From Candidatus Thorarchaeota archaeon (GTDB lineage Archaea > Asgardarchaeota > Thorarchaeia > Thorarchaeales > Thorarchaeaceae), in the NCBI GenBank assembly GCA_013388835.1, contig JACAEL010000038.1:64171-128170 (forward strand): a stretch of DNA of 64,000 nucleotides, in the 5' to 3' direction. Shown one piece after another: positions 19,047 through 29,767 of the stretch (the first letter of the stretch is position 1; each line of letters starts with the position of its first letter). The notes beneath the pieces were generated by a model. The model saw nothing but the letters and a program-made list of their open reading frames with translations, had not been told where the DNA came from and searched no databases. The translations under genes and the position numbers were made by a program.

Positions 19047-21305
19047 GTGAGTAACACTCGAGGTGAAATGCCGGACCTGACTCACACATTCGTGCTCAAG
19101 AGAGGAGTTGCATTATTGAACACCGAGACCCGACTGTCACCTGCCCAGCTCGCACTGTTTGCTATCCGACATACCCAGTCAGCAGCTATGATAGACAACC
19201 TTTCAGATGTGCTCGCTCTCAGGACGGGGATGGACGCTGCGAGAATAGCCGCACTAACGTGGCTGGCGGGCCAAGCTGTCGGGAGTGACCCAGTCGATCT
19301 CTTCGACAAGACGCGTCCTTTCTCCCATCTCTCATATCACGCCGAGAGAGTAGGGGTTTCTCGAGACGCAGTGCTAGGACGAGCAAGGCACATACTTGAG
19401 CTCGGTATTCCACCATGTGTTCCGCACTCCTTCTCTGGATTAGACTTCTTGGACTCCATGAGCCAGGTTCACTCCATCGGAAGTCACTTCTTCCTTCCCC
19501 TTGATAGAAAGGCCTCGTCAAGACACCTTCTCGGGATGTACTACACGCCATGGCCTGTAGCTAGATACATCGCCGAGCTGACGCTAGGACCTCCCCTGGA
19601 CGCACTGAAGAGACAGTACGCTGGGGACACAGAGGAATTCAGAAGACTTGTGAAGTCGGTCAGTGTGTTGGACCCAGCATGCGGTCCCGGTGTCTTTCTC
19701 TTCGCGTCACTATGTGCTATTGCCCATAGACTGGAGGCTGGGCTTCAAGACTCGCTCATCCCATCAGTGGCAGAGAACCTCTATGGTGTCGACATCGACA
19801 CTTCGGCTCTGGAGATTGCCGACTTTGGACTGAGTCTCCTTGCCGGTACCGTGGCTGAGAGACCATCGAGAAGCATCAGAAGAAGCCTGAAGACCGGCGA
19901 TGCACTCGTATCCATGTCAGGCAGTTGTCGGACTGGCGACCACATCTCCATCAGCGACCCTGAGAAACCGAGGCCCTTTGATTGGTTGGCGGCGTTTCCA
20001 GAGGTACTTGCAGGTTCAGACAGAGGGTTCGACTTCGTTGTGATGAATCCGCCATTTGACAGGATTCGACCGAACCTGCTGGAGTACATGCGTGAGAGGC
20101 TCTCCTACGGTGAGCGGAGCATAAGACTGGACGCGTTCGAGGCGGCAAGACAGCGGATGCGAGAGCGCGCAGCATACTTCAGGCAATGCACCGACTATGA
20201 GTTCTCCGCTACCAGCACCATCGACAGCCACAGACTCTTTGTTGAACGGGCGCTGTCCTTCCTTAGAGATGGTGGTAGACTCGGTGCCGTCGTCCCGTCA
20301 ACCATTCTTGGAGACCGGTCAGCGCGGCTGCTGCGCTCCCACCTCATCGAATCCAACCGGTTGGAGACCGTTGATATCTTTCCGGAAGGTGCGCGCCTAT
20401 TCCCAAGAGTCACTCAGTCTGTGGCCATTCTGACAGTGACAAAGGGGGGAAGCACAGAGACCGCGTCCGTCTCACCACCACTGATGGCCTTGCCCGCGGT
20501 CACAGACATTCAACGAATTCCAGTCTCAATTGCAGAGGTCCGAAGTGTGTTGGGTCATGACCTACCCATATGTCCATTGTCGCATCAAGACCTACGAGTC
20601 CTTAGAGTGATGCAGTCGTTTCCTGCACTGGACGCTCTGCCTTGGCTAACAGTCAGACGTGGTGAACTTGACCTTACACTCGACCGCACACTCATAACAA
20701 CCGACCGGACCCTCTGTCCTCTTGTCCGTGGGGCAAGAATCCGCCGCTTCACACTGGATGTGGATTACATGTCGGAGTTCGTCAGTCTCGAACGACTTGC
20801 CACCGTCAGACGCAAGTCATCACGAACTCACCATGTCTTGTCCACCAGACTGGCATGTCAACAGGTGTCAAACAGAGCTCAGAGATGGCGACTCAAGTTC
20901 GCACCAGTGCCTCCGCGACATGTACTGGCAAACTCGTGCAACTATGTCTATGTTGATGCTGCACTCCCGGGCCTTGAGTACTTCATGCTGGGTCTCCTGA
21001 ACTCCACACTCCTCAATTGGCGGTTCTCGCTTACAAGCACAAACAACCATGTATCGAATCATGAGTTGAAAACCATGCGAGTGTTTGACGCCATGACAGC
21101 GGGACGGGACACCGATGGGTGGATTCGGTTGGTGATAAGAGCCGCAGAACGAGCCTCCTCAGGTCGGTTCGACTCACTTGCCGAACTCGATGCTGCTGTG
21201 TTCCGACTCCACGGCCTCGACGCAACAGACGCGAGGTACATTCTGCATTCTGTAGGGGCTGATGAATACGAGACAGAGCAGGTCATCGTTAATACCAGGT
21301 CCTGA
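19047..21305 (+). CDS. Eco57I-like adenine-N6 DNA methyltransferase
   Basis: A 752-residue SAM-dependent DNA methyltransferase of the type II N6-adenine group. After a helical N-terminal region (1-155), motif X is seen as LGMYYTPWPVARYIAELTL (162-180), motif I as VLDPACGPGVFLFASL (207-222), the acidic ribose-binding region as NLYGVDIDTSALEIADF, and catalytic motif IV as NPPFDR near 335. The C-terminal half (about 440-700) is a target-recognition region. No PD-(D/E)XK or HNH nuclease is seen, so this is a modification subunit rather than a type IIG fusion. GTG at 19047 is listed; ATG at 19068 is an alternative. The next gene is a cytosine methyltransferase. Confidence 0.9.
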   Translation: MSNTRGEMPDLTHTFVLKRGVALLNTETRLSPAQLALFAIRHTQSAAMIDNLSDVLALRTGMDAARIAALTWLAGQAVGSDPVDLFDKTRPFSHLSYHAERVGVSRDAVLGRARHILELGIPPCVPHSFSGLDFLDSMSQVHSIGSHFFLPLDRKASSRHLLGMYYTPWPVARYIAELTLGPPLDALKRQYAGDTEEFRRLVKSVSVLDPACGPGVFLFASLCAIAHRLEAGLQDSLIPSVAENLYGVDIDTSALEIADFGLSLLAGTVAERPSRSIRRSLKTGDALVSMSGSCRTGDHISISDPEKPRPFDWLAAFPEVLAGSDRGFDFVVMNPPFDRIRPNLLEYMRERLSYGERSIRLDAFEAARQRMRERAAYFRQCTDYEFSATSTIDSHRLFVERALSFLRDGGRLGAVVPSTILGDRSARLLRSHLIESNRLETVDIFPEGARLFPRVTQSVAILTVTKGGSTETASVSPPLMALPAVTDIQRIPVSIAEVRSVLGHDLPICPLSHQDLRVLRVMQSFPALDALPWLTVRRGELDLTLDRTLITTDRTLCPLVRGARIRRFTLDVDYMSEFVSLERLATVRRKSSRTHHVLSTRLACQQVSNRAQRWRLKFAPVPPRHVLANSCNYVYVDAALPGLEYFMLGLLNSTLLNWRFSLTSTNNHVSNHELKTMRVFDAMTAGRDTDGWIRLVIRAAERASSGRFDSLAELDAAVFRLHGLDATDARYILHSVGADEYETEQVIVNTRS

Positions 21306-21358: not shown

Positions 21359-22588
21359 TTGACCACACTTCTCGATGCTGCTGCTCAGGAGTCGTTTGGC
21401 AAGTCGACACTCTATGACCACATTGCACCGACTCTCAGCAGACTGGACATGGAGATAATCCGGAGCATTCCTGAAGGAGGCAATTGGCAAGACATCCCGC
21501 TGGAGGTGGCGAGCAAGTCGGTTCGGATAATGCGTATTCGTGCATCCGGAGGCAGGACCACTTACTATGGTAGACTCAGGAGAGATGCTCCCAGTCCGAC
21601 GGTAAACACGTTCTTTCACAGGCCCGGCAATGGTTCGTTCGTGCATCCTGTGCAAGACCGGATGATCTCCCTTCGGGAGGCAGCACGTCTCCAGTCATTC
21701 CCCGACTCATTCAGATTCGTCGGCCCTCGCTCATCCGTCTACAGACAGATTGGCAATGCCGTGCCGCCGCTTCTCGCCTATGCTCTCGGCCGTTGCGTCC
21801 ACAAGAGCCGCGTTGTGGACATGTTCTGCGGCGCGGGAGGCCTGTCTCAAGGCTTGAAGATGGCGGGCCATTCAGTTGTAGCCGCCTTTGACAGAGAACG
21901 GCACATGTGTTCGACCTTCAGACTCAATCACCCCGACGCACTTGTCAGAGAGGTCGCTGTCAGTAGTCTGTGTCTGCCAAGCATCGTGGAGGACATCGAG
22001 TCCGTTCTCCGAGGCCGTACACTTGGCCTGCTGGCCGGTGGCCCTCCATGCCAAGGCTTCTCCACAGCTGGAAGGATGGACAAGACTGACCCGCGCAACT
22101 CCCTTGTGTTCTCAATGACCGACCTTGTGAGAGAGCTGCAGCCTGAGGCCGTGCTCATCGAGAACGTCCTTGGTCTGCGGTCCTTCAGAGGAGGCGACAC
22201 AATTGCTGACTTGACAGGTCGACTGAATGAGCTGGGATATGAGACTGAGACGATGGTGCTCAAGGCGGAACAGTATGGTGTGCCGCAACGTAGAAGGCGA
22301 GTCTTCTTGGTTGCCAGCCGTGACGGTGAGAGACCAGAAGCTCCACGGACCATTCTGCCGGAGTATGCGCGGACTCGCAGATCGGGGAGTCGGTCAGCCA
22401 GTCACGCTGAAAGTGCGCCCATCACGGTGGAGGCAGCGATAGGAGACCTACCCGCGATACCATCTGGTGGCGGAGACCAAGTGATGACATATAGACCCGA
22501 GTGGACACGGACCGACTATCAACGGTATAGCAGAGGAACGCTTGACTCTGGCAGCTTCTTGGACCGTCTGTCACGTGTTAACACCTGA
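21359..22588 (+). CDS. circularly permuted C5-cytosine DNA methyltransferase
   Basis: All conserved m5C-methyltransferase motifs are present but rotated. The N-terminal 145 residues hold what is normally the C-terminal end: the end of the target-recognition domain (IPEGGNWQDIP, GGRTTYYGRL), motif IX (LREAARLQSFPD, 105-116) and motif X (YRQIGNAVPPLLA, 128-140). Motif I follows (VVDMFCGAGGLSQGL, 152-166), then motif IV with catalytic Cys231 (GGPPCQGFS), motif VI ENV (268-270) and motif VIII (QYGVPQRRRR, 305-314). The permutation point lies inside the TRD. M.BssHII is a known precedent for this order. The start is TTG at 21359; the frame is open further upstream into the previous gene, so the start is uncertain. 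Confidence 0.9.
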   Translation: MTTLLDAAAQESFGKSTLYDHIAPTLSRLDMEIIRSIPEGGNWQDIPLEVASKSVRIMRIRASGGRTTYYGRLRRDAPSPTVNTFFHRPGNGSFVHPVQDRMISLREAARLQSFPDSFRFVGPRSSVYRQIGNAVPPLLAYALGRCVHKSRVVDMFCGAGGLSQGLKMAGHSVVAAFDRERHMCSTFRLNHPDALVREVAVSSLCLPSIVEDIESVLRGRTLGLLAGGPPCQGFSTAGRMDKTDPRNSLVFSMTDLVRELQPEAVLIENVLGLRSFRGGDTIADLTGRLNELGYETETMVLKAEQYGVPQRRRRVFLVASRDGERPEAPRTILPEYARTRRSGSRSASHAESAPITVEAAIGDLPAIPSGGGDQVMTYRPEWTRTDYQRYSRGTLDSGSFLDRLSRVNT

Positions 22589-22658: not shown

Positions 22659-24362
22659 ATGCTCTTGGACGTGCGGGGACCAAAGACCTTGGCCTCGCTC
22701 AAGTTCACGACCACTACGGTGAGTGAGGACCTGCTCGAAGAGATTCTGGGCAGGTATTATGAGCTGGCAGGCGTAGACGCAGTCAACTCCGTGGTCCCAG
22801 TCAGCCTCCATCAGAAGACCTGCTATATCTGTCGCACTACCGACACTAGTGTGTTGGTCGCAGTGTGTGACTCAAACCATGTGAGTCCTCTCGATCTTGA
22901 GAGGCTGACATCGCTGTGCAATGAGCTACAGAGGACCCTGCCCATTCGCCAACGGGGTGAGATTCGTTCCGACTTTGTACTGGCGGCTCGACGTCATCTG
23001 CAGAAGAGCCTGAAGGTGTGCTTTGTCGCGCAGTCGGATCCGTTGCATCACAACACCACCATAGCAGCAGTCGAACAGGTCTTCGCGAACTGCTCGGATG
23101 AGATGAGTCCTTTCACGAAACCAATCTCCATTGGTCCCCTCCTGGTCGAGGCGGCCCGATGCAACACCGAGGACTTGGCCACAGGGCTCTGGCCCGTGCA
23201 CCTGAATGACGTCAACATCCTTGCCATTGTGGTGGACTCTGGTCTTTCAGCAGAGTACTATGCGAGTGTGGCAAGTGTCATTCATGACAACTCCCAAGCC
23301 CACATTGTTGCGCTGCCAGCTTCAGAAGAAGACCTCGACTTCACAGAGGAGATTGCTGAATCCAACGCTATCGGTTTCGTCGATGCGGTACCGACGGTGG
23401 CTTCGGACCTGTTCTTCTCCACGCTTGCCGCCTCTGGACAGATGGATATGGAGCTGGACGAGGCAAAAGACCAATGGGTGTTCGACGAAGCAATCAATCA
23501 GTACGTGACTCGTGATCAGGTCCCTTCAAAGCCCTTGGGTCATCAGGCATTCTTCGTCGTGGACAGGACAAATGGCGAACCGGTCTTCTCTTACTACTAC
23601 GAGCACAAGTCGGTCGTCCTGGAGAGGGCACCCAATGTCGTTGCCGCCATATCGATGTTTACTGTCGAGAGCGACGGGGACCACAAGACCTCGGTGTTCA
23701 GAGCAGGCGACTTGGACTATGTGCTCATCGAACGAGAGAACCTGATCTTCACGCTGGTCACGGGCAGTCAGTACAATGTCGAGCAACTGCGCGAGAGATT
23801 CTCATTTCTTCCCGAACTGTACTTGGACGAGCGCCCTGAAGTTGTATCGCGCCCTGACGACCCATATTCCTCACCAGCCTTCACGCTCAAGCTACTCGCG
23901 ACTCTGCCCGGTGAGCAGCTCTGTGACAGGCATGTGCCCTACAAGATAAAGGCGCCAGACTGGGAGAGGTTTGAGTCGGCGATGGTAGCAGACTTCCTCG
24001 AGGCAGTTTGGGACAGCATTGATAACCAGTCCAAGTTGTCTAGGTACGTGCAAGAGCAGGCGGGGCCTCAGATGACATTGGGTGCGCTCCAATTCCTGAA
24101 ATCGCTGTCTGCTATCGGATTCAGACTGGACCTAGAAGCAACAGATGTGCCACGGATGATTAGTCCTCCAAGTGAGGATCTACTCAAAACCTACTCTGAG
24201 CTCAACGAGATTGTGAGCCTCGCTGACGGGATGCTCACAATAGAGGAGATTGGCGCAATGACAGGAGTGTCAACCGACGTGCTTCTGCATGTCTTCTCGG
24301 AGCTCTACAAGAGAGGCTCAGTGAGTCTTGAATCCACGAGCAGTACTGACGGACTAAGTTGA
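22659..24362 (+). CDS. longin-domain protein with winged-helix C-terminus
   Basis: A 567-residue protein. A longin-like fold is suggested at about residues 290-370 (HQAFFVVDRTNGEPVFSYYY ... DLDYVLIERENLIFTLVTGS), the pattern of five strands and two helices used by small-GTPase platforms and SNARE-type regulators. The N-terminal 270 residues show a further alpha/beta pattern that may be a diverged longin pair. The end (about 515-557, LTIEEIGAMTGVSTDVLLHVFSELYKRGSV) reads as a winged helix. It precedes the GTPase fusion gene by 76 bases on the same strand, so the two probably act together. No enzyme motif is seen. The longin call is from pattern, not search. Confidence 0.65.
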   Translation: MLLDVRGPKTLASLKFTTTTVSEDLLEEILGRYYELAGVDAVNSVVPVSLHQKTCYICRTTDTSVLVAVCDSNHVSPLDLERLTSLCNELQRTLPIRQRGEIRSDFVLAARRHLQKSLKVCFVAQSDPLHHNTTIAAVEQVFANCSDEMSPFTKPISIGPLLVEAARCNTEDLATGLWPVHLNDVNILAIVVDSGLSAEYYASVASVIHDNSQAHIVALPASEEDLDFTEEIAESNAIGFVDAVPTVASDLFFSTLAASGQMDMELDEAKDQWVFDEAINQYVTRDQVPSKPLGHQAFFVVDRTNGEPVFSYYYEHKSVVLERAPNVVAAISMFTVESDGDHKTSVFRAGDLDYVLIERENLIFTLVTGSQYNVEQLRERFSFLPELYLDERPEVVSRPDDPYSSPAFTLKLLATLPGEQLCDRHVPYKIKAPDWERFESAMVADFLEAVWDSIDNQSKLSRYVQEQAGPQMTLGALQFLKSLSAIGFRLDLEATDVPRMISPPSEDLLKTYSELNEIVSLADGMLTIEEIGAMTGVSTDVLLHVFSELYKRGSVSLESTSSTDGLS

Positions 24363-24438: not shown

Positions 24439-26397
24439 ATGATACACAACGTCCTTCTCATTGACAAGGTGGATGGAAGCGTCATCACTCGGGTCCGATT
24501 CTGGAAGATTGACTTCACAGAACAGCACATAGCCGAGTTCCTAGCAGGCTATCGTGACCTGATGAGCACACAAGGACTGGCAAGCGACACTCCCATCTTC
24601 GTCGGCAAGCACAAGGTCTTCCATGGACCAGTCGACGATGAGATGCTTCTTCTCTTTGTCACGGACGGCAGAGACGAGGACAGAGTAATCAGGCACAAGG
24701 TCAGAGAGGGCGCATCAAGAATCTCCGTTGCACTCCGAGGCAACACCATAAGCTACATCCGCGACAACCTGGACGAGCTCCTCGGAGAACTCATCTTCAC
24801 AAGGTTCAAAGTGAGCTTTGTGGGAAGTGGTGGTGTCGGAAAGAGCACACTCTTGAGGCTTCTGTTCGGTCGAGAGCCCGCGCCTGGTGGCTATGTCCCC
24901 ACCATAAACGTTGCAGTCGACTCCTCCGAGACAATCCAGTTTGGCACATTCATGGTGACAATGTGGGACTTCGCGGGACAGGCGGTCTTCCAGGACCTCT
25001 GGGCGTTCTATTTCCAGGGCACTGACGTCATATTCCTGATCACTGACTCGAGCTTTAGGAATGTCATGGCGACAAAGACACTCCTCCGCAACATACGGAA
25101 GGAGGCGCCTGCGGTACCCCTGTTCATAATTGCAAATAAGCAGGACCTGCCCGAGTCAATGAAGGCTGACAAGATACAGCGCCTGTTGGGGGCCCCAACC
25201 TTTCCAATGGTCGCGACAGACAAGGCACGACGCGAGGAGTTCATACGGCTCATGCTTGAGGTTGCTGCAAAGACAGTCGGAGTACAGCTGCCAGATATGC
25301 CATTGAGCGAGATGATCACGGTCCACAGGAAGACTGATGCTCGCGACATGCCGGACGCTATCGACACAAGCGGACCAAGGCCCAAGTCCGCCCAGACTGG
25401 ACTTGAGCATGTGCCATATGAAGCCCCCACCGAAGACCTCCCACCGGAATCGCACGCTGTTGGGCCGCCAACAGAGACAACCGGGTCGGCGCCCACGGTT
25501 GCAGAGGCAGAGTCTGGTCCGAGTGATGAAGCCAAGAAGGTGTCGGACACACGCGGTCCGTCGAAGCTGTTACAGCTGACCCTGATGGTGAGAAGAGAGG
25601 AGGCATTCGAAACCGTGCTTGAGCTTCCGTACGCCGAGGAGTTGTCCAGCGGCAGTCCAATCGCCGGACTGGTGTCTGCACTCGACTCATTCGGTGGTAT
25701 AGATGCGGAATCAGAAACAGCAGACAAGACAGACGCTCTTGAGACCATCGAACACGAGGGCAACCTTGTGATGGTGGAGAAGTCGAAGCACTTCGTCATG
25801 GCACTGACAGTCACCAATGACACTGACGAGGACGCACGTAGGCGGACCATGGCCTCAGCACTGCTTGACATAGAACGCGCCTATGCCGACTCATGGGACT
25901 CTTGGGATGGCAGCACTGACGCATTTGAGGGCGCAGTGTTCGCAATTGTCGAACGATTTCCACTCCGAGCCATCAGTGACGACTACACGGTTCGTGCTCG
26001 CGAGGTGGGACAGCCTCTGCCCTTCAACAGCAGAGAGGTGGGACGAGCGTTGGTCACTGTCTTGAAGGCCATCGAACAGAACACCACGGTCGGAACGCTT
26101 GTCAGCAAGCTAGACCTACCCCGGTCGACCGTGATTGGCAGCCTCCAGATACTTGCCCGGTTCGGATGGGTTGACTTCAAGGTCGAACTGAATCCGAAGA
26201 GTATCCCCAAGAAGGTTGGAGAGGTGGATGACGATCTAAGAAAGACCTACGGCGATGTGATTGTCAAGTTTGTCGACCTCTGTGACGGCAGGACCACGCT
26301 TGAGGATGTGGTGAAGAAAGTCAGTCTCAGTCTGCCAGCGATGCGCTTCGTGGCCACGAAGCTTGTGTTGCAGGGAGTCCTTGAGATTGTCGCCTAG
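24439..26397 (+). CDS. longin - Arf-like GTPase - longin-like - winged-helix fusion
   Basis: A 652-residue multidomain protein typical of Asgard archaea. Residues 1-115 are longin/roadblock-like (MIHNVLLIDKVDGSVI). Residues 122-280 are an Arf/Rag-type small GTPase: G1 GSGGVGKST (about 129-137), switch II WDFAGQ (about 176-181) and G4 NKQD (about 233-236). A low-complexity Pro/Glu/Ser linker (about 300-370) follows, then a second longin-like region (about 373-520, LLQLTLMVRREEAF ... FAIVERFPL) and one or two winged helices to the end (TLVSKLDLPRSTVIGSLQIL; TTLEDVVKKVSLSLPAMRF). The layout suggests a nucleotide switch with its own regulatory platform and a DNA- or protein-binding tail. Convergent with the beta-CASP gene, one base apart. 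Confidence 0.8.
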   Translation: MIHNVLLIDKVDGSVITRVRFWKIDFTEQHIAEFLAGYRDLMSTQGLASDTPIFVGKHKVFHGPVDDEMLLLFVTDGRDEDRVIRHKVREGASRISVALRGNTISYIRDNLDELLGELIFTRFKVSFVGSGGVGKSTLLRLLFGREPAPGGYVPTINVAVDSSETIQFGTFMVTMWDFAGQAVFQDLWAFYFQGTDVIFLITDSSFRNVMATKTLLRNIRKEAPAVPLFIIANKQDLPESMKADKIQRLLGAPTFPMVATDKARREEFIRLMLEVAAKTVGVQLPDMPLSEMITVHRKTDARDMPDAIDTSGPRPKSAQTGLEHVPYEAPTEDLPPESHAVGPPTETTGSAPTVAEAESGPSDEAKKVSDTRGPSKLLQLTLMVRREEAFETVLELPYAEELSSGSPIAGLVSALDSFGGIDAESETADKTDALETIEHEGNLVMVEKSKHFVMALTVTNDTDEDARRRTMASALLDIERAYADSWDSWDGSTDAFEGAVFAIVERFPLRAISDDYTVRAREVGQPLPFNSREVGRALVTVLKAIEQNTTVGTLVSKLDLPRSTVIGSLQILARFGWVDFKVELNPKSIPKKVGEVDDDLRKTYGDVIVKFVDLCDGRTTLEDVVKKVSLSLPAMRFVATKLVLQGVLEIVA

Positions 26398-26398
26398 T

Positions 26399-28531
26399 TC
26401 AGACCGAGAGCGTGATTCTCTGTCCCTGGGATGGCACAGTCACACCATCAGGAGGGGTTCTTTCGGGCGTGTGTACCATGACCTTGATCCCTGTGCATGA
26501 ACGGACCCACTCTTGCAGTCTGGTGGAAGAGGAGTGAGCTGACAACCGGGCATACTCGACACGACACTGGTGCTTTTCATAGCCATGAAGTAGGTTCCAG
26601 CCGGGTGTCCGAGGAGCAAGATACCCGCACAGGACAACTGCAGCCTCCTTGTTGTCCCTGTGTTCGTTGAAGAACTGTCTTGCAAGCCCTCCCGCCATCA
26701 TTCCACCTCCAGTGACCAATACGTCGTCCCTGTCTAGCCACGTCTTGTTCTTCTTCATTCCGGACCAACTCCCCTGGTACCCAGTCATCTTAGTTATCGT
26801 CTCCGCCATACCTGCTACCATGACGTTGCGCCTGGACGTGATGCCGGTCTTCTCGAGCATGGTCAGCACCTCCTGGGTCCTACCAACTGCAAAACTAGGG
26901 ATGATGACAGGGCCATTATTGCGGGTCACATCATCGAACAGTGCTGCGGCCCTCTGCCGGTCAAAGTCCTCTCGACCCCAATAAGTGCCATCAAAGATTG
27001 TCACATCGCTCTCCGTTGGCATCTGTGCTCCTGGGAATAGGAGAGAGTCATCAAGATTGAAGTCCCCAGTGTAGAGAATCTTCAGGCCCTCAATGTCCAC
27101 CAGATAGGCTACACTGCCTGGTATGTGACTTGCCTGGATAGGGGTGACCACAACGCCTGCGGCGACTTCGCTGCTCTTTCCCACTTCCAAGTTGACATGG
27201 TTCTTCGCAACTCTCTGAATGTTCTCCTTTGTGAAGCGCGACACCATATCAGTCGGGTCATTCTTTCGAGGAGGAAGCGGTGTTCCAACGTTCAGGGCGT
27301 CCTCAAGAAGCGTCATCGCCACGGCGCCTGTGGGTGCGACCGAGCACCACTTGCCCGTGAACTCCTCATAGAGTACCGGAAGTCCACCAACATGGTCAAG
27401 GTGTGAATGAGTCACGAGAACAGTGTCGATGAGATTCACTTCTGGTTCCCACAACGGTGTCGACTGATTTGCGACAGACAGTCCGAAGTCCATCAGAATC
27501 CCTCCCGAGCTGGTCTTCACCAGGACTGCACTGCGCCCTATCTCCTGTCCTCCAAGCAGGATGATCTCGACTTTCTTGGTCCGCGTGGAATAGACAATTG
27601 ACGGCATCAGCTGCACCCGCATCTTCTGCGGCACCATCTCGAAGACCACATGGTCCACGATGTCCGGAGAAGGAGGCCTCGCCAGCTGCTGTAGTCTGAC
27701 GGGAAGAATGTCATCCGGATGCGTCCTGAAGTCGCATTCAGCGAAGTAGTCACTCACTTTGCGGAAGGCGGCTCTCACATCATCTGCGTCGGAGACCAGT
27801 TGCTGTGCCTGTGCATACACAGCCCTTTGGAATTCTGAGAACAGCCTAGACGACAGCACCTCAGGGAGCCACTCGCGAGTCGCAGATCGCACATCATAGT
27901 ACTTCTTGCCCTGTGCAGCCTCGTACAGGTAGGCTGACCGCCTCTGTAGGGTGTCAGTCAGCCTGTAGTCTTCTTCTACAAGCAGTGGACCTATGTCGAT
28001 GCCAAGAGCGGCACAGACGTCAACGAAGCGAGCCGGCTGCCACAGTGGGGTCCCGAGATAGTCAATCCACCTTCTCACCTCCGACATTATCTCTCGGGGT
28101 GACGGACCGCATACGGCTGAGAGAATCACGAGCGCTTTTCGCATCCAATCATCTGTCGACTCACTGACCTGCGACTTCCACAGTGAATACCGGTAGAGAT
28201 ACCTAAAATCCTCATCCGTGTAGTTGCCCAGCAGGTGTCCATAGAGACACATTGCAAGCGCATCTTTGTAGAGGCCTTCGTCAAATGTGTCGGCTGAGTC
28301 GAGCATGTAAGAGTCAAGCGTAGCGGACACCTTTGCTGCGATGGGCAACGGGAGTGAGCTTGTCGTCCTCGTCCGGGCCAACTCGAAGAGCGCTATCTCA
28401 TGCGACTCGCCGAACAGACCCGAGTGAGAGGCGATTCTCTTTCCTTGTCTGAGCTTCTCAGTGTCAGCCTCTATGGACTCGAAGAAGCCGTCCATCGTCT
28501 TGATGCCAGTCACTGGATACCGCGGTGTCAA
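26399..28531 (-). CDS. beta-CASP metallo-beta-lactamase RNase-like protein with N-terminal extension
   Basis: A 710-residue protein whose residues 320-705 are a beta-CASP nuclease: metal motif 2 THSHLDHVGG (374-383), a later histidine in SHIPGSVAY, the metal Asp in YTGDFNLDDS, and the beta-CASP start SFAVGRTQE. The family cuts RNA as endonuclease or 5'-3' exonuclease (RNase J, CPSF73/aCPSF). It lacks the KH domains of archaeal aCPSF1. The first 310 residues are helical, of no family I recognise, and not found in ordinary RNase J. Start M1 or M13 is possible. It begins 10 bases after the NAD-kinase-like gene stop, so the two are likely co-transcribed. Confidence 0.8.
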   Translation of the reverse strand: MTPRYPVTGIKTMDGFFESIEADTEKLRQGKRIASHSGLFGESHEIALFELARTRTTSSLPLPIAAKVSATLDSYMLDSADTFDEGLYKDALAMCLYGHLLGNYTDEDFRYLYRYSLWKSQVSESTDDWMRKALVILSAVCGPSPREIMSEVRRWIDYLGTPLWQPARFVDVCAALGIDIGPLLVEEDYRLTDTLQRRSAYLYEAAQGKKYYDVRSATREWLPEVLSSRLFSEFQRAVYAQAQQLVSDADDVRAAFRKVSDYFAECDFRTHPDDILPVRLQQLARPPSPDIVDHVVFEMVPQKMRVQLMPSIVYSTRTKKVEIILLGGQEIGRSAVLVKTSSGGILMDFGLSVANQSTPLWEPEVNLIDTVLVTHSHLDHVGGLPVLYEEFTGKWCSVAPTGAVAMTLLEDALNVGTPLPPRKNDPTDMVSRFTKENIQRVAKNHVNLEVGKSSEVAAGVVVTPIQASHIPGSVAYLVDIEGLKILYTGDFNLDDSLLFPGAQMPTESDVTIFDGTYWGREDFDRQRAAALFDDVTRNNGPVIIPSFAVGRTQEVLTMLEKTGITSRRNVMVAGMAETITKMTGYQGSWSGMKKNKTWLDRDDVLVTGGGMMAGGLARQFFNEHRDNKEAAVVLCGYLAPRTPGWNLLHGYEKHQCRVEYARLSAHSSSTRLQEWVRSCTGIKVMVHTPERTPPDGVTVPSQGQRITLSV

Positions 28532-28540
28532 CTGTTGGAG

Positions 28541-29653
28541 TCACTTCCTTGTGTCTGGTGCCGGTTCGTCCTTCTTGCGTGGGTTCGTGAGTCTGAACAG
28601 GCCCTGTCGACTGTCTCTGAGTGACAGCTTCTTCATCACGAGCCCTTCACTGATGAGAATCGAGAGAGCGTGGCGTACTGTTCTGGCTGGCAGCTTGGTC
28701 TCTTCGATTATCTCCCTCTGACTGAGCTGTTCACCATACTCGAGGACCTTCAGAACTAGCTTGGCGCTTGGTGGCAGATCCTGTGCCACACTCTCGAAGA
28801 CCTCGATCTTCTTGAGCAGCTTTCCGTGGAGAGCTGCAACCCTCTCCTCCGGGAACTTGACGAACAGTGCATCGTTGGTGGAGCGAGTCACCTGAATCGA
28901 CTTGCCCCGCAGAGGCCGCCGGACTTGTCCATCGAAGATGACATCCACTGTCACCCTGCTGGAGATGTCCTTCACCTCCAGCGTCATCGAGTCGGGCACG
29001 ATGAGAGGCCTTCTTGCTGGATTAGCACTGTTCACAGCAATCACTGTCATTACAGGAGCCGGGGATACGACAACAGGTCCGCCCACGCTCATTGCATAGG
29101 CTGTGCTGCCGGTGGGGGTGGAGATGATCAGCCCATCGCTCATGTCTTTCCAGAACGGCTCACCTTCCAGATGCAAAGAATACCCGATGAGAATTGCACT
29201 AGTACGGGGAAAGATAGCAATCTCGTTGAGTATGAGTGGGGACTCTGCACCGTCCATGGTGATGTGGAGCCTTGCTCGTCTCTCGATACTCCATCTCCTT
29301 GCTACAAGGTCCTCTACTGCTTCCTCGAAGCTTGCAGCACTGACATCAAAGAGAAAACCGGGTTGGCCCCGAGATGCGACAGGTAGAACTGGAGAGCTTC
29401 TCTTGCCGAGCCGAAGAAGCGTGTTCAGCAGCGTGTGGTCTGAACCGACAACTGCCAGGACGTCAACGGACATCTTTCTGAGAGGTGTGCCAGTACTGCC
29501 TACTGCAGCAGCAAGTCCTTCCTCAAGCTCTACTTCCACACCCGCGTCGGTCAACAGCTGTGCCACTTGAGTTGCGTCCTCAACCATGGCCGAGGCCTGA
29601 CCTGAAGCAATGCCAACTCTCAAGCTGAGGACCTCATTGGGTTTGAGGAACAT
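28541..29653 (-). CDS. NAD kinase-like protein with C-terminal winged helix
   Basis: Residues 1-280 follow the NAD kinase fold (NAD + ATP to NADP). The GGDGT motif is replaced by VGSDHTLL (near 69-76), keeping the Asp but not two glycines. LNEIAIF (the NE motif, near 142) and the signature ISTPTGSTAYA (near 177-187) are intact. Residues about 295-352 form a winged helix (SQREIIEETKLPARTVRHALSILISEGLV) and the tail is basic. The fused DNA-binding domain and the divergent position relative to nadA suggest an NAD(P)-responsive regulator, possibly still a kinase. I chose ATG 29653 because a TTTAAAT box overlaps the alternative ATG at 29668. Confidence 0.75.
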   Translation of the reverse strand: MFLKPNEVLSLRVGIASGQASAMVEDATQVAQLLTDAGVEVELEEGLAAAVGSTGTPLRKMSVDVLAVVGSDHTLLNTLLRLGKRSSPVLPVASRGQPGFLFDVSAASFEEAVEDLVARRWSIERRARLHITMDGAESPLILNEIAIFPRTSAILIGYSLHLEGEPFWKDMSDGLIISTPTGSTAYAMSVGGPVVVSPAPVMTVIAVNSANPARRPLIVPDSMTLEVKDISSRVTVDVIFDGQVRRPLRGKSIQVTRSTNDALFVKFPEERVAALHGKLLKKIEVFESVAQDLPPSAKLVLKVLEYGEQLSQREIIEETKLPARTVRHALSILISEGLVMKKLSLRDSRQGLFRLTNPRKKDEPAPDTRK

Positions 29654-29767
29654 GACTCGAGACCGCATTTAAACCAGTTGACACACCTGCGGCAGATAGA
29701 TGCCGGGCAGATGGCAAGAATTGCCTCATGGTCTGCCGACTGTCAACAGTTGCCATTTGCGGACTGG

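Follow-up and report, generated by a model that had tools for sequence, protein, structure and literature searches.

A longin–Arf-like GTPase–winged-helix protein of Thorarchaeota and its adjoining pseudo-GTPase paralogue: a putative Rag/GATOR1-style switch

Results

Domain organization of P0001

In the window, that is, the whole 64,000-nucleotide stretch of Candidatus Thorarchaeota DNA analysed here, an open reading frame on the forward strand (24439..26397, +) encodes a 652-residue protein (hereafter designated P0001), in which a longin domain, an Arf-like GTPase (G) domain, a linker, a second longin domain, and two winged-helix (wHTH) units follow one another in a single chain. This order, proposed in the first-pass annotation, is borne out by the AF2 model, a Pfam Arf match, and relatives of nearly full length. 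The AF2 model, calculated with 23 orthologues in the alignment, shows the longin topology ββ-α-βββ-αα twice and then two winged-helix units, with pLDDT values of mostly 75–92 for the longins and winged helices, so that both kinds of fold appear in the full-chain structure prediction that had been put forward as a check. Longin 1 occupies residues 1–119 (24439..24795, +; pLDDT 64–92 by block) and longin 2 residues 376–508 (25564..25962, +), the longin topology being modelled at 1–119 and 377–506, on either side of the GTPase as had been surmised. Longin 2 is acidic and, by AF2, hhalign, and alignment, Npr2/3-like, and contains an invariant Arg (R468). It is preceded by a variable, disordered acidic linker (residues 291–374; 25309..25560, +; pLDDT <40; 23% mean identity). 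The winged helices, modelled as units at residues 532–592 and 598–650, are assigned to residues 530–592 (26026..26214, +), where weak Pfam HTH matches were all under the cut-off, and to residues 596–650 (26224..26388, +), within the C-terminal half that aligns as a whole with a tandem pair of longin-wH proteins described below. Foldseek searches with P0001 returned AP and COPI small chains, which have the longin fold, Rho/Rac GTPases, and GATOR1 chains. The N-terminus of L054, a protein homologous to P0001 in longin 1, matched Fuz_longin_1 (2.8e-4) and Clat_adaptor_s (1.4e-3), both under the Pfam cut-offs.

The G domain (residues 121–285; 24799..25293, +) has all of its G1–G4 motifs intact. 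Pfam Arf matches residues 122–252 with an E-value of 9.3e-18 and 64.7 bits against a cut-off of 22.3, and Roc and Ras match more weakly; P0001 thus combines a score over the Pfam cut-off with G1, G3, G4, and the switch I Thr, as expected of Arf and Arf-like proteins. At the positions tested, GSGGVGKST, T155, DFAGQ, and NKQD do not vary among the 23 P0001 sequences, and P0001 is therefore predicted to bind and hydrolyse GTP. The amphipathic, myristoylated N-terminal helix of Arf is not found in P0001, in which a longin sits before the G domain in the AF2 model. With a mean identity of 92% to its orthologues, the G domain was poorly modelled by AF2 (pLDDT 41–73) because the aligned G domains are nearly invariant, and its assignment therefore rests on sequence. 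The source genome (3.0 Mb, 125 contigs) contains 34 Arf-family matches, in line with Asgard archaea.

Relatives of P0001 in the genome collection numbered 29, the majority near full length, at 60–67% identity. Full-length orthologues were confined to the Thorarchaeota family of the window, where 39 of the 47 genomes possess one, and other Asgard families gave partial matches to the C-terminal half only. A 553-residue paralogue of P0001 was also observed (L051:6829-8490), a longin-GTPase whose long acidic tail contains EEQGTVAEEQGTV repeats.

An adjacent paralogue with a dead GTPase domain

The adjacent upstream gene (22659..24362, +) encodes a 567-residue protein (P0002), which hhalign, AF2, and Foldseek identify as a paralogue of P0001, alike in its five-domain layout but with its G domain dead. 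A link to this protein, starting at 22.66 kb, had been suggested in the first-pass annotation and is supported; that the neighbour is a full-length paralogue with a dead GTPase goes beyond the earlier reading and is the most informative fact at the locus. When the family profiles, which are shallow (Neff 1.4–4), were compared by hhalign, positions 1–646 of P0001 were aligned to 11–572 of P0002 with an E-value of 2e-14 and a probability of 98.3%, and the N- and C-terminal halves gave 3.6e-10 and 9e-12, respectively, as against 0.19 and 0.085 (probability <1%) for negative controls with an unrelated family. The homology of the C-terminal regions was detected by BLASTP alone (~1e-6).

The AF2 model of P0002 (mean pLDDT 82.9) comprises longin 1 (residues 1–114; 22659..23000, +; also covered by the N-half hhalign alignment), a G-like α/β domain (residues 116–258; 23004..23432, +; pLDDT 82–96 by block), longin 2 (residues 294–392; 23538..23834, +; invariant R378; Fuz_longin_1 at 0.0015, under the cut-off), and winged helices 1 (residues 440–500; 23976..24158, +) and 2 (residues 505–558; 24171..24332, +). 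The P-loop, DxxGQ, and [NT]KxD are missing in 18/18 P0002 orthologues. Since the nucleotide motifs are gone from all of them, we regard P0002, on the grounds of sequence and model, as a pseudo-GTPase, whose G-like fold is homologous to that of a GTPase and lacks G1, G3, and G4. P0002 is also fast-evolving, with 26% identity in the G-like domain versus 92% in the G domain of P0001; all domains are nevertheless kept.

Foldseek placed RagA, RagC, Gtr1, and Gtr2 at the top of the matches of P0002 (E from 1.8e-7), followed at lower ranks by Npr2/Npr3 of SEA/GATOR1, FLCN/FNIP, CPLANE, Mon1–Ccz1, and single longins (VAMP7, AP sigma); the chain letters presumably denote these subunits, as assigned from entry titles. 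Whole-chain TM-scores were low (0.12–0.19 of the query), so that the Foldseek matches of both proteins are to be read at the level of domains. The match rows carry no residue ranges by which a match could be assigned to one or the other longin.

Resemblance to Npr2/Npr3 and Rag/Gtr proteins

Npr2 and Npr3 are heterodimerising paralogues composed of a longin and tandem wHTH units (PMC3521125, PMC8534245), and NPRL2/NPRL3 of eukaryotes serve as a GAP in trans on RagA (PMC8534245). Similarly, P0001 and P0002 are two paralogous chains in which a longin is followed by tandem winged helices, and the likeness extends to Foldseek matches from both chains and to weak sequence matches with NPRL2 and the NPRL3 HTH. 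In hmmsearch against PDB sequences, human NPRL2 was the top match of the P0002 C-terminal profile, with an alignment (E 0.064) that covers winged helix 2 and the strand preceding it. NPRL2 was retrieved from these sequences only by the P0002 and tandem-pair profiles (E 0.06–0.36), and the profile of the P0001 C-terminal half gave no match at E 10.

This tandem pair consists of longin-wH-wH proteins of 272 and 287 residues, encoded in the source genome (C53; L050:5298-6976) a few genes from a roadblock-like protein, and is present in the majority of the genomes of the family. By hhalign (3.5e-33), the pair shares homology with the C-terminal half of P0001; it constitutes an independent paralogous pair of the P0001-type C-terminal lobe and the strongest Npr2/Npr3-like candidates encountered. 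Over 228 Asgard genomes, Pfam HTH_NPRL3 had tandem-pair proteins among its top matches, one of them over the cut-off (1e-5), and Pfam NPR2 gave nothing over the cut-off. The Pfam scan of P0001 and P0002 reported no HTH_NPRL3 match, whereas the sister tandem pair does match. In another Asgard family, a 343-residue protein (G082; L076:1480-2511) exceeds the HTH_NPRL3 cut-off (8.5e-7), appears longin-like by eye at its N-terminus, and is a candidate Npr3-like protein outside Thorarchaeota.

P0001 and P0002 differ from Npr2/Npr3 in having two wHTH units rather than three and in the longin and G domain added N-terminally; moreover, no DEPDC5/Iml1 partner was seen for them, and the Pfam NPR2 cut-off was not reached. 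A further difference concerns the arginine finger of NPRL2, Arg78, which appears to lie in the longin β4–β5 loop: on this placement, the loop in longin 2 contains an invariant Lys (K448) in P0001 and an Arg (R359) in 15/18 P0002 sequences. One other site of longin 2 is an invariant Arg, namely, R468 in P0001, R378 in P0002, and R89 in the tandem pair. R468 was weighed as an arginine finger and is recorded here simply as invariant, since it falls within the opening turn of the helix that follows strand 5 of the longin, unlike the apparent position of Arg78 in NPRL2. Because the Pfam NPR2 cut-off is not attained and an arginine finger cannot be clearly recognised, we do not assign the proteins to Npr2/3. 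Collectively, independent lines from sequences and models agree that the C-terminal half of each chain resembles Npr2/3, no single sequence test being decisive.

The pair also resembles Rag/Gtr in that a G domain is followed by a dimerisation domain of the longin/roadblock type, as seen by AF2 and Foldseek and most clearly for P0002, and in that two unequal paralogous chains are present, RagA/RagC and Gtr1/Gtr2 being the top Foldseek matches of P0002. In sequence, however, the G domain of P0001 is Arf-like, scoring 64.7 bits with Arf and 21.2 bits with Gtr1_RagA (cut-off 22, not reached), and the N-terminal longin and C-terminal wHTH units are additional to the Rag/Gtr layout. Furthermore, Rag/Gtr proteins are obligate heterodimers of two nucleotide-binding chains, whereas P0002 is devoid of any nucleotide-binding motif.

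Linkage of the two genes

Both P0001 and P0002 are present in 36 genomes, in 28 of which the two lie on one contig at coordinates that agree with adjacency; in 5 of the remaining 8, P0002 is followed directly by the beginning of P0001, truncated there by the contig end. Two exceptions were found. A closed chromosome (G214, L093) lacks P0002 and has a P0001 without its first 30 residues, which is probably an assembly fault because its genus-mate G213 has P0002. The other is a single MAG contig (L032), in which P0001 occurs without P0002 within the contig. At this locus (L032:5617-10054), the P0001 orthologue has neither P0002 nor methylases beside it and adjoins an apparent two-receiver response regulator and a histidine kinase, identified by reading the sequence.

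The linkage, together with the retention of five domains in P0002 despite its dead G domain, points to a structural partnership. The same two observations weigh against the foremost alternative, namely, that P0001, whether monomeric or homodimeric, is by itself a complete Arf-like switch that serves to organise membranes or vesicles, with P0002 being a regulator or competitor, not an obligate subunit, that owes its adjacency to tandem duplication: P0001–P0002 linkage holds in nearly all family genomes that could be checked, and P0002 has kept all five domains. The L032 contig, the much faster evolution of P0002, and the longin-GTPase chains that stand alone, L001 and L002 in the source genome and L054 in a different Asgard family, are consistent with this alternative, which we hold to be rather unlikely.

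Methyltransferase genes upstream and the role of the winged helices

Two DNA methyltransferase genes precede the pair. The first encodes an N6-adenine (m6A) enzyme of the Alw26I/Eco31I/Esp3I type (19047..21305, +; TIGR02987 at 2.5e-69, under its cut-off; Eco57I at 8.4e-19), and the second a circularly permuted C5 (m5C) enzyme (21359..22588, +; Pfam 2e-58), in which motifs IX and X stand ahead of motif I, both in the window copy and in nearly all orthologues. The two genes thereby supply the m6A and the circularly permuted m5C methylase of the Alw26I/Eco31I/Esp3I family, for which such a permuted m5C methylase has been described (PMC5944983), and both match halves of a single fused 1036-residue PADLOC model. 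They are separate adjoining genes here and, as orphan methylases, are kept in most Thorarchaeota sampled. The restriction endonuclease PF09665 is absent from the source genome and is over the cut-off in just 2 of the 47 family genomes (G187 and G200), where the methylase on its contig is another, longer one (843–847 residues). The co-directional order m6A–m5C–P0002–P0001 was found at 16 loci in addition to the window, with gaps of usually 0–130 bp. In genus g12 (G218 and G219), the GTPase pair is retained and the cassette methylases are absent; the link between methylases and GTPase pair is therefore conserved and not obligatory.

On the opposite strand, P0001 has as its constant convergent neighbour a 710-residue β-CASP metallo-β-lactamase with a long N-terminal extension (26399-28531, −), which gave aCPSF1- and Cas14-like NCBIfam matches under the cut-off. 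Next follows an NAD kinase with a fused C-terminal winged helix (28541-29668, −), adjoining NadA.

The conserved gene order and the lack of an Alw26I-type restriction enzyme beside the methylases would fit a GTP-controlled chromosomal regulator, in which the pair works with the upstream methyltransferases, its winged helices binding DNA or the methylases and its GTP state gating or reading methylation. Genus g12 speaks against this reading, as does the charge of the winged helices: averaged over orthologues, the net charge of the winged helices and of their recognition helices is near neutral or acidic. The closest namesakes of these winged helices are the C-lobes of Npr2/Npr3, in which the winged helices are protein-interaction lobes. 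On charge, scaffolding is thus favoured over DNA reading, and the DNA-binding output envisaged in the first-pass annotation is disfavoured and left as the weaker branch; we judge a chromosomal regulator of this kind improbable. Far less probable still is restriction or anti-phage defence by the four-gene cassette, with the GTPase pair in place of the restriction enzyme or as an abortive switch: the restriction-modification family of the methylases and the constant β-CASP nuclease-like neighbour point that way, whereas the vertical, syntenic conservation across the family differs from patchy defence islands, the pair contains no nuclease domain, and PADLOC found no convincing defence family in P0001 or P0002.

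Discussion

The domain content, the paralogy, the loss of motifs from P0002, and the gene linkage, all computed directly, are the ground for the reading that we favour by a modest measure: P0001 and P0002, as judged from sequences and models, probably form a Rag/GATOR1-style heterodimeric small-GTPase switch with one live and one dead chain. Both chains would have descended from an ancestor of the order longin–G domain–longin–wHTH–wHTH, from which P0001 would retain a fully equipped Arf-like GTPase and P0002, with nucleotide binding lost, would have become a fixed pseudo-GTPase partner. Pairing would presumably occur via the Npr2/Npr3-like C-terminal lobes and probably the longins too, the winged helices, like those of Npr2/Npr3, providing dimerisation and a scaffold and not DNA reading. 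The live G domain may rest on a longin platform by which its GTP cycle is controlled, through GAP or GEF action, in cis or across the dimer, and a conserved effector may be recruited by the near-invariant G-domain surface of P0001 once GTP is bound. Any functional link of the heterodimer to the methyltransferases is likewise inferred.

More speculatively, the pair might be an Asgard one-chain counterpart of the Rag–GATOR1 module, each subunit carrying both a GTPase and the Npr2/3-like lobe that regulates it, the GTPase of the second subunit having decayed to a pseudo-GTPase, possibly tied to DNA methylation. Such an arrangement could be ancestral, dating from before the separation of Rag and Npr2/3 in eukaryotes, or a parallel fusion; we offer this proposal tentatively, as one of the less likely possibilities.

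In eukaryotes, pseudo-GTPase partners are amply documented; a limited literature search found no description of them in Asgard archaea. Longin-GTPase, GTPase-roadblock, and longin-GTPase-roadblock chains are on record in the lokiarchaeote MK-D1, along with a Rag-like operon pair predicted to heterodimerise like Gtr1–Gtr2 (PMC10933270, in the portion available). The first-pass picture of a GTPase switch between longin platforms stands as a description of the single chain, and the GTPase-longin fusion itself is not new, because Asgard longin-GTPase chains are recorded in that portion of PMC10933270. The MK-D1 fusions are alike in joining Arf-annotated Asgard GTPases to a longin or roadblock; they differ in that the same portion of the paper mentions no wHTH or Npr-like lobe, pseudo-GTPase partner, or methylase cassette. 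Likewise, one of the asCOGs already bears the name 'NPRL2-like longin domain' (PMC9834061), so that Npr2-like longins are already annotated in Asgard archaea, whereas a GTPase fusion or partner is not described in the part of that source available. Within the literature searched, the new features are the fusion that joins a GTPase with a longin-wHTH lobe of Npr2/3-like character, a sister gene encoding a pseudo-GTPase, and the position of the two behind orphan Esp3I-type methylases.

The origin of the Rag–GATOR nutrient-sensing switch and of longin platforms is an open question on the emergence of eukaryotes. In archaea nearest to eukaryotes, we find a GTPase covalently joined to an Npr2/3-like longin-wHTH lobe, with the gene for a dead-GTPase partner adjoining it. 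The locus thus permits, from two genes, a direct test of whether the chains pair and whether GTP hydrolysis is under the control, in cis, of a longin lobe.
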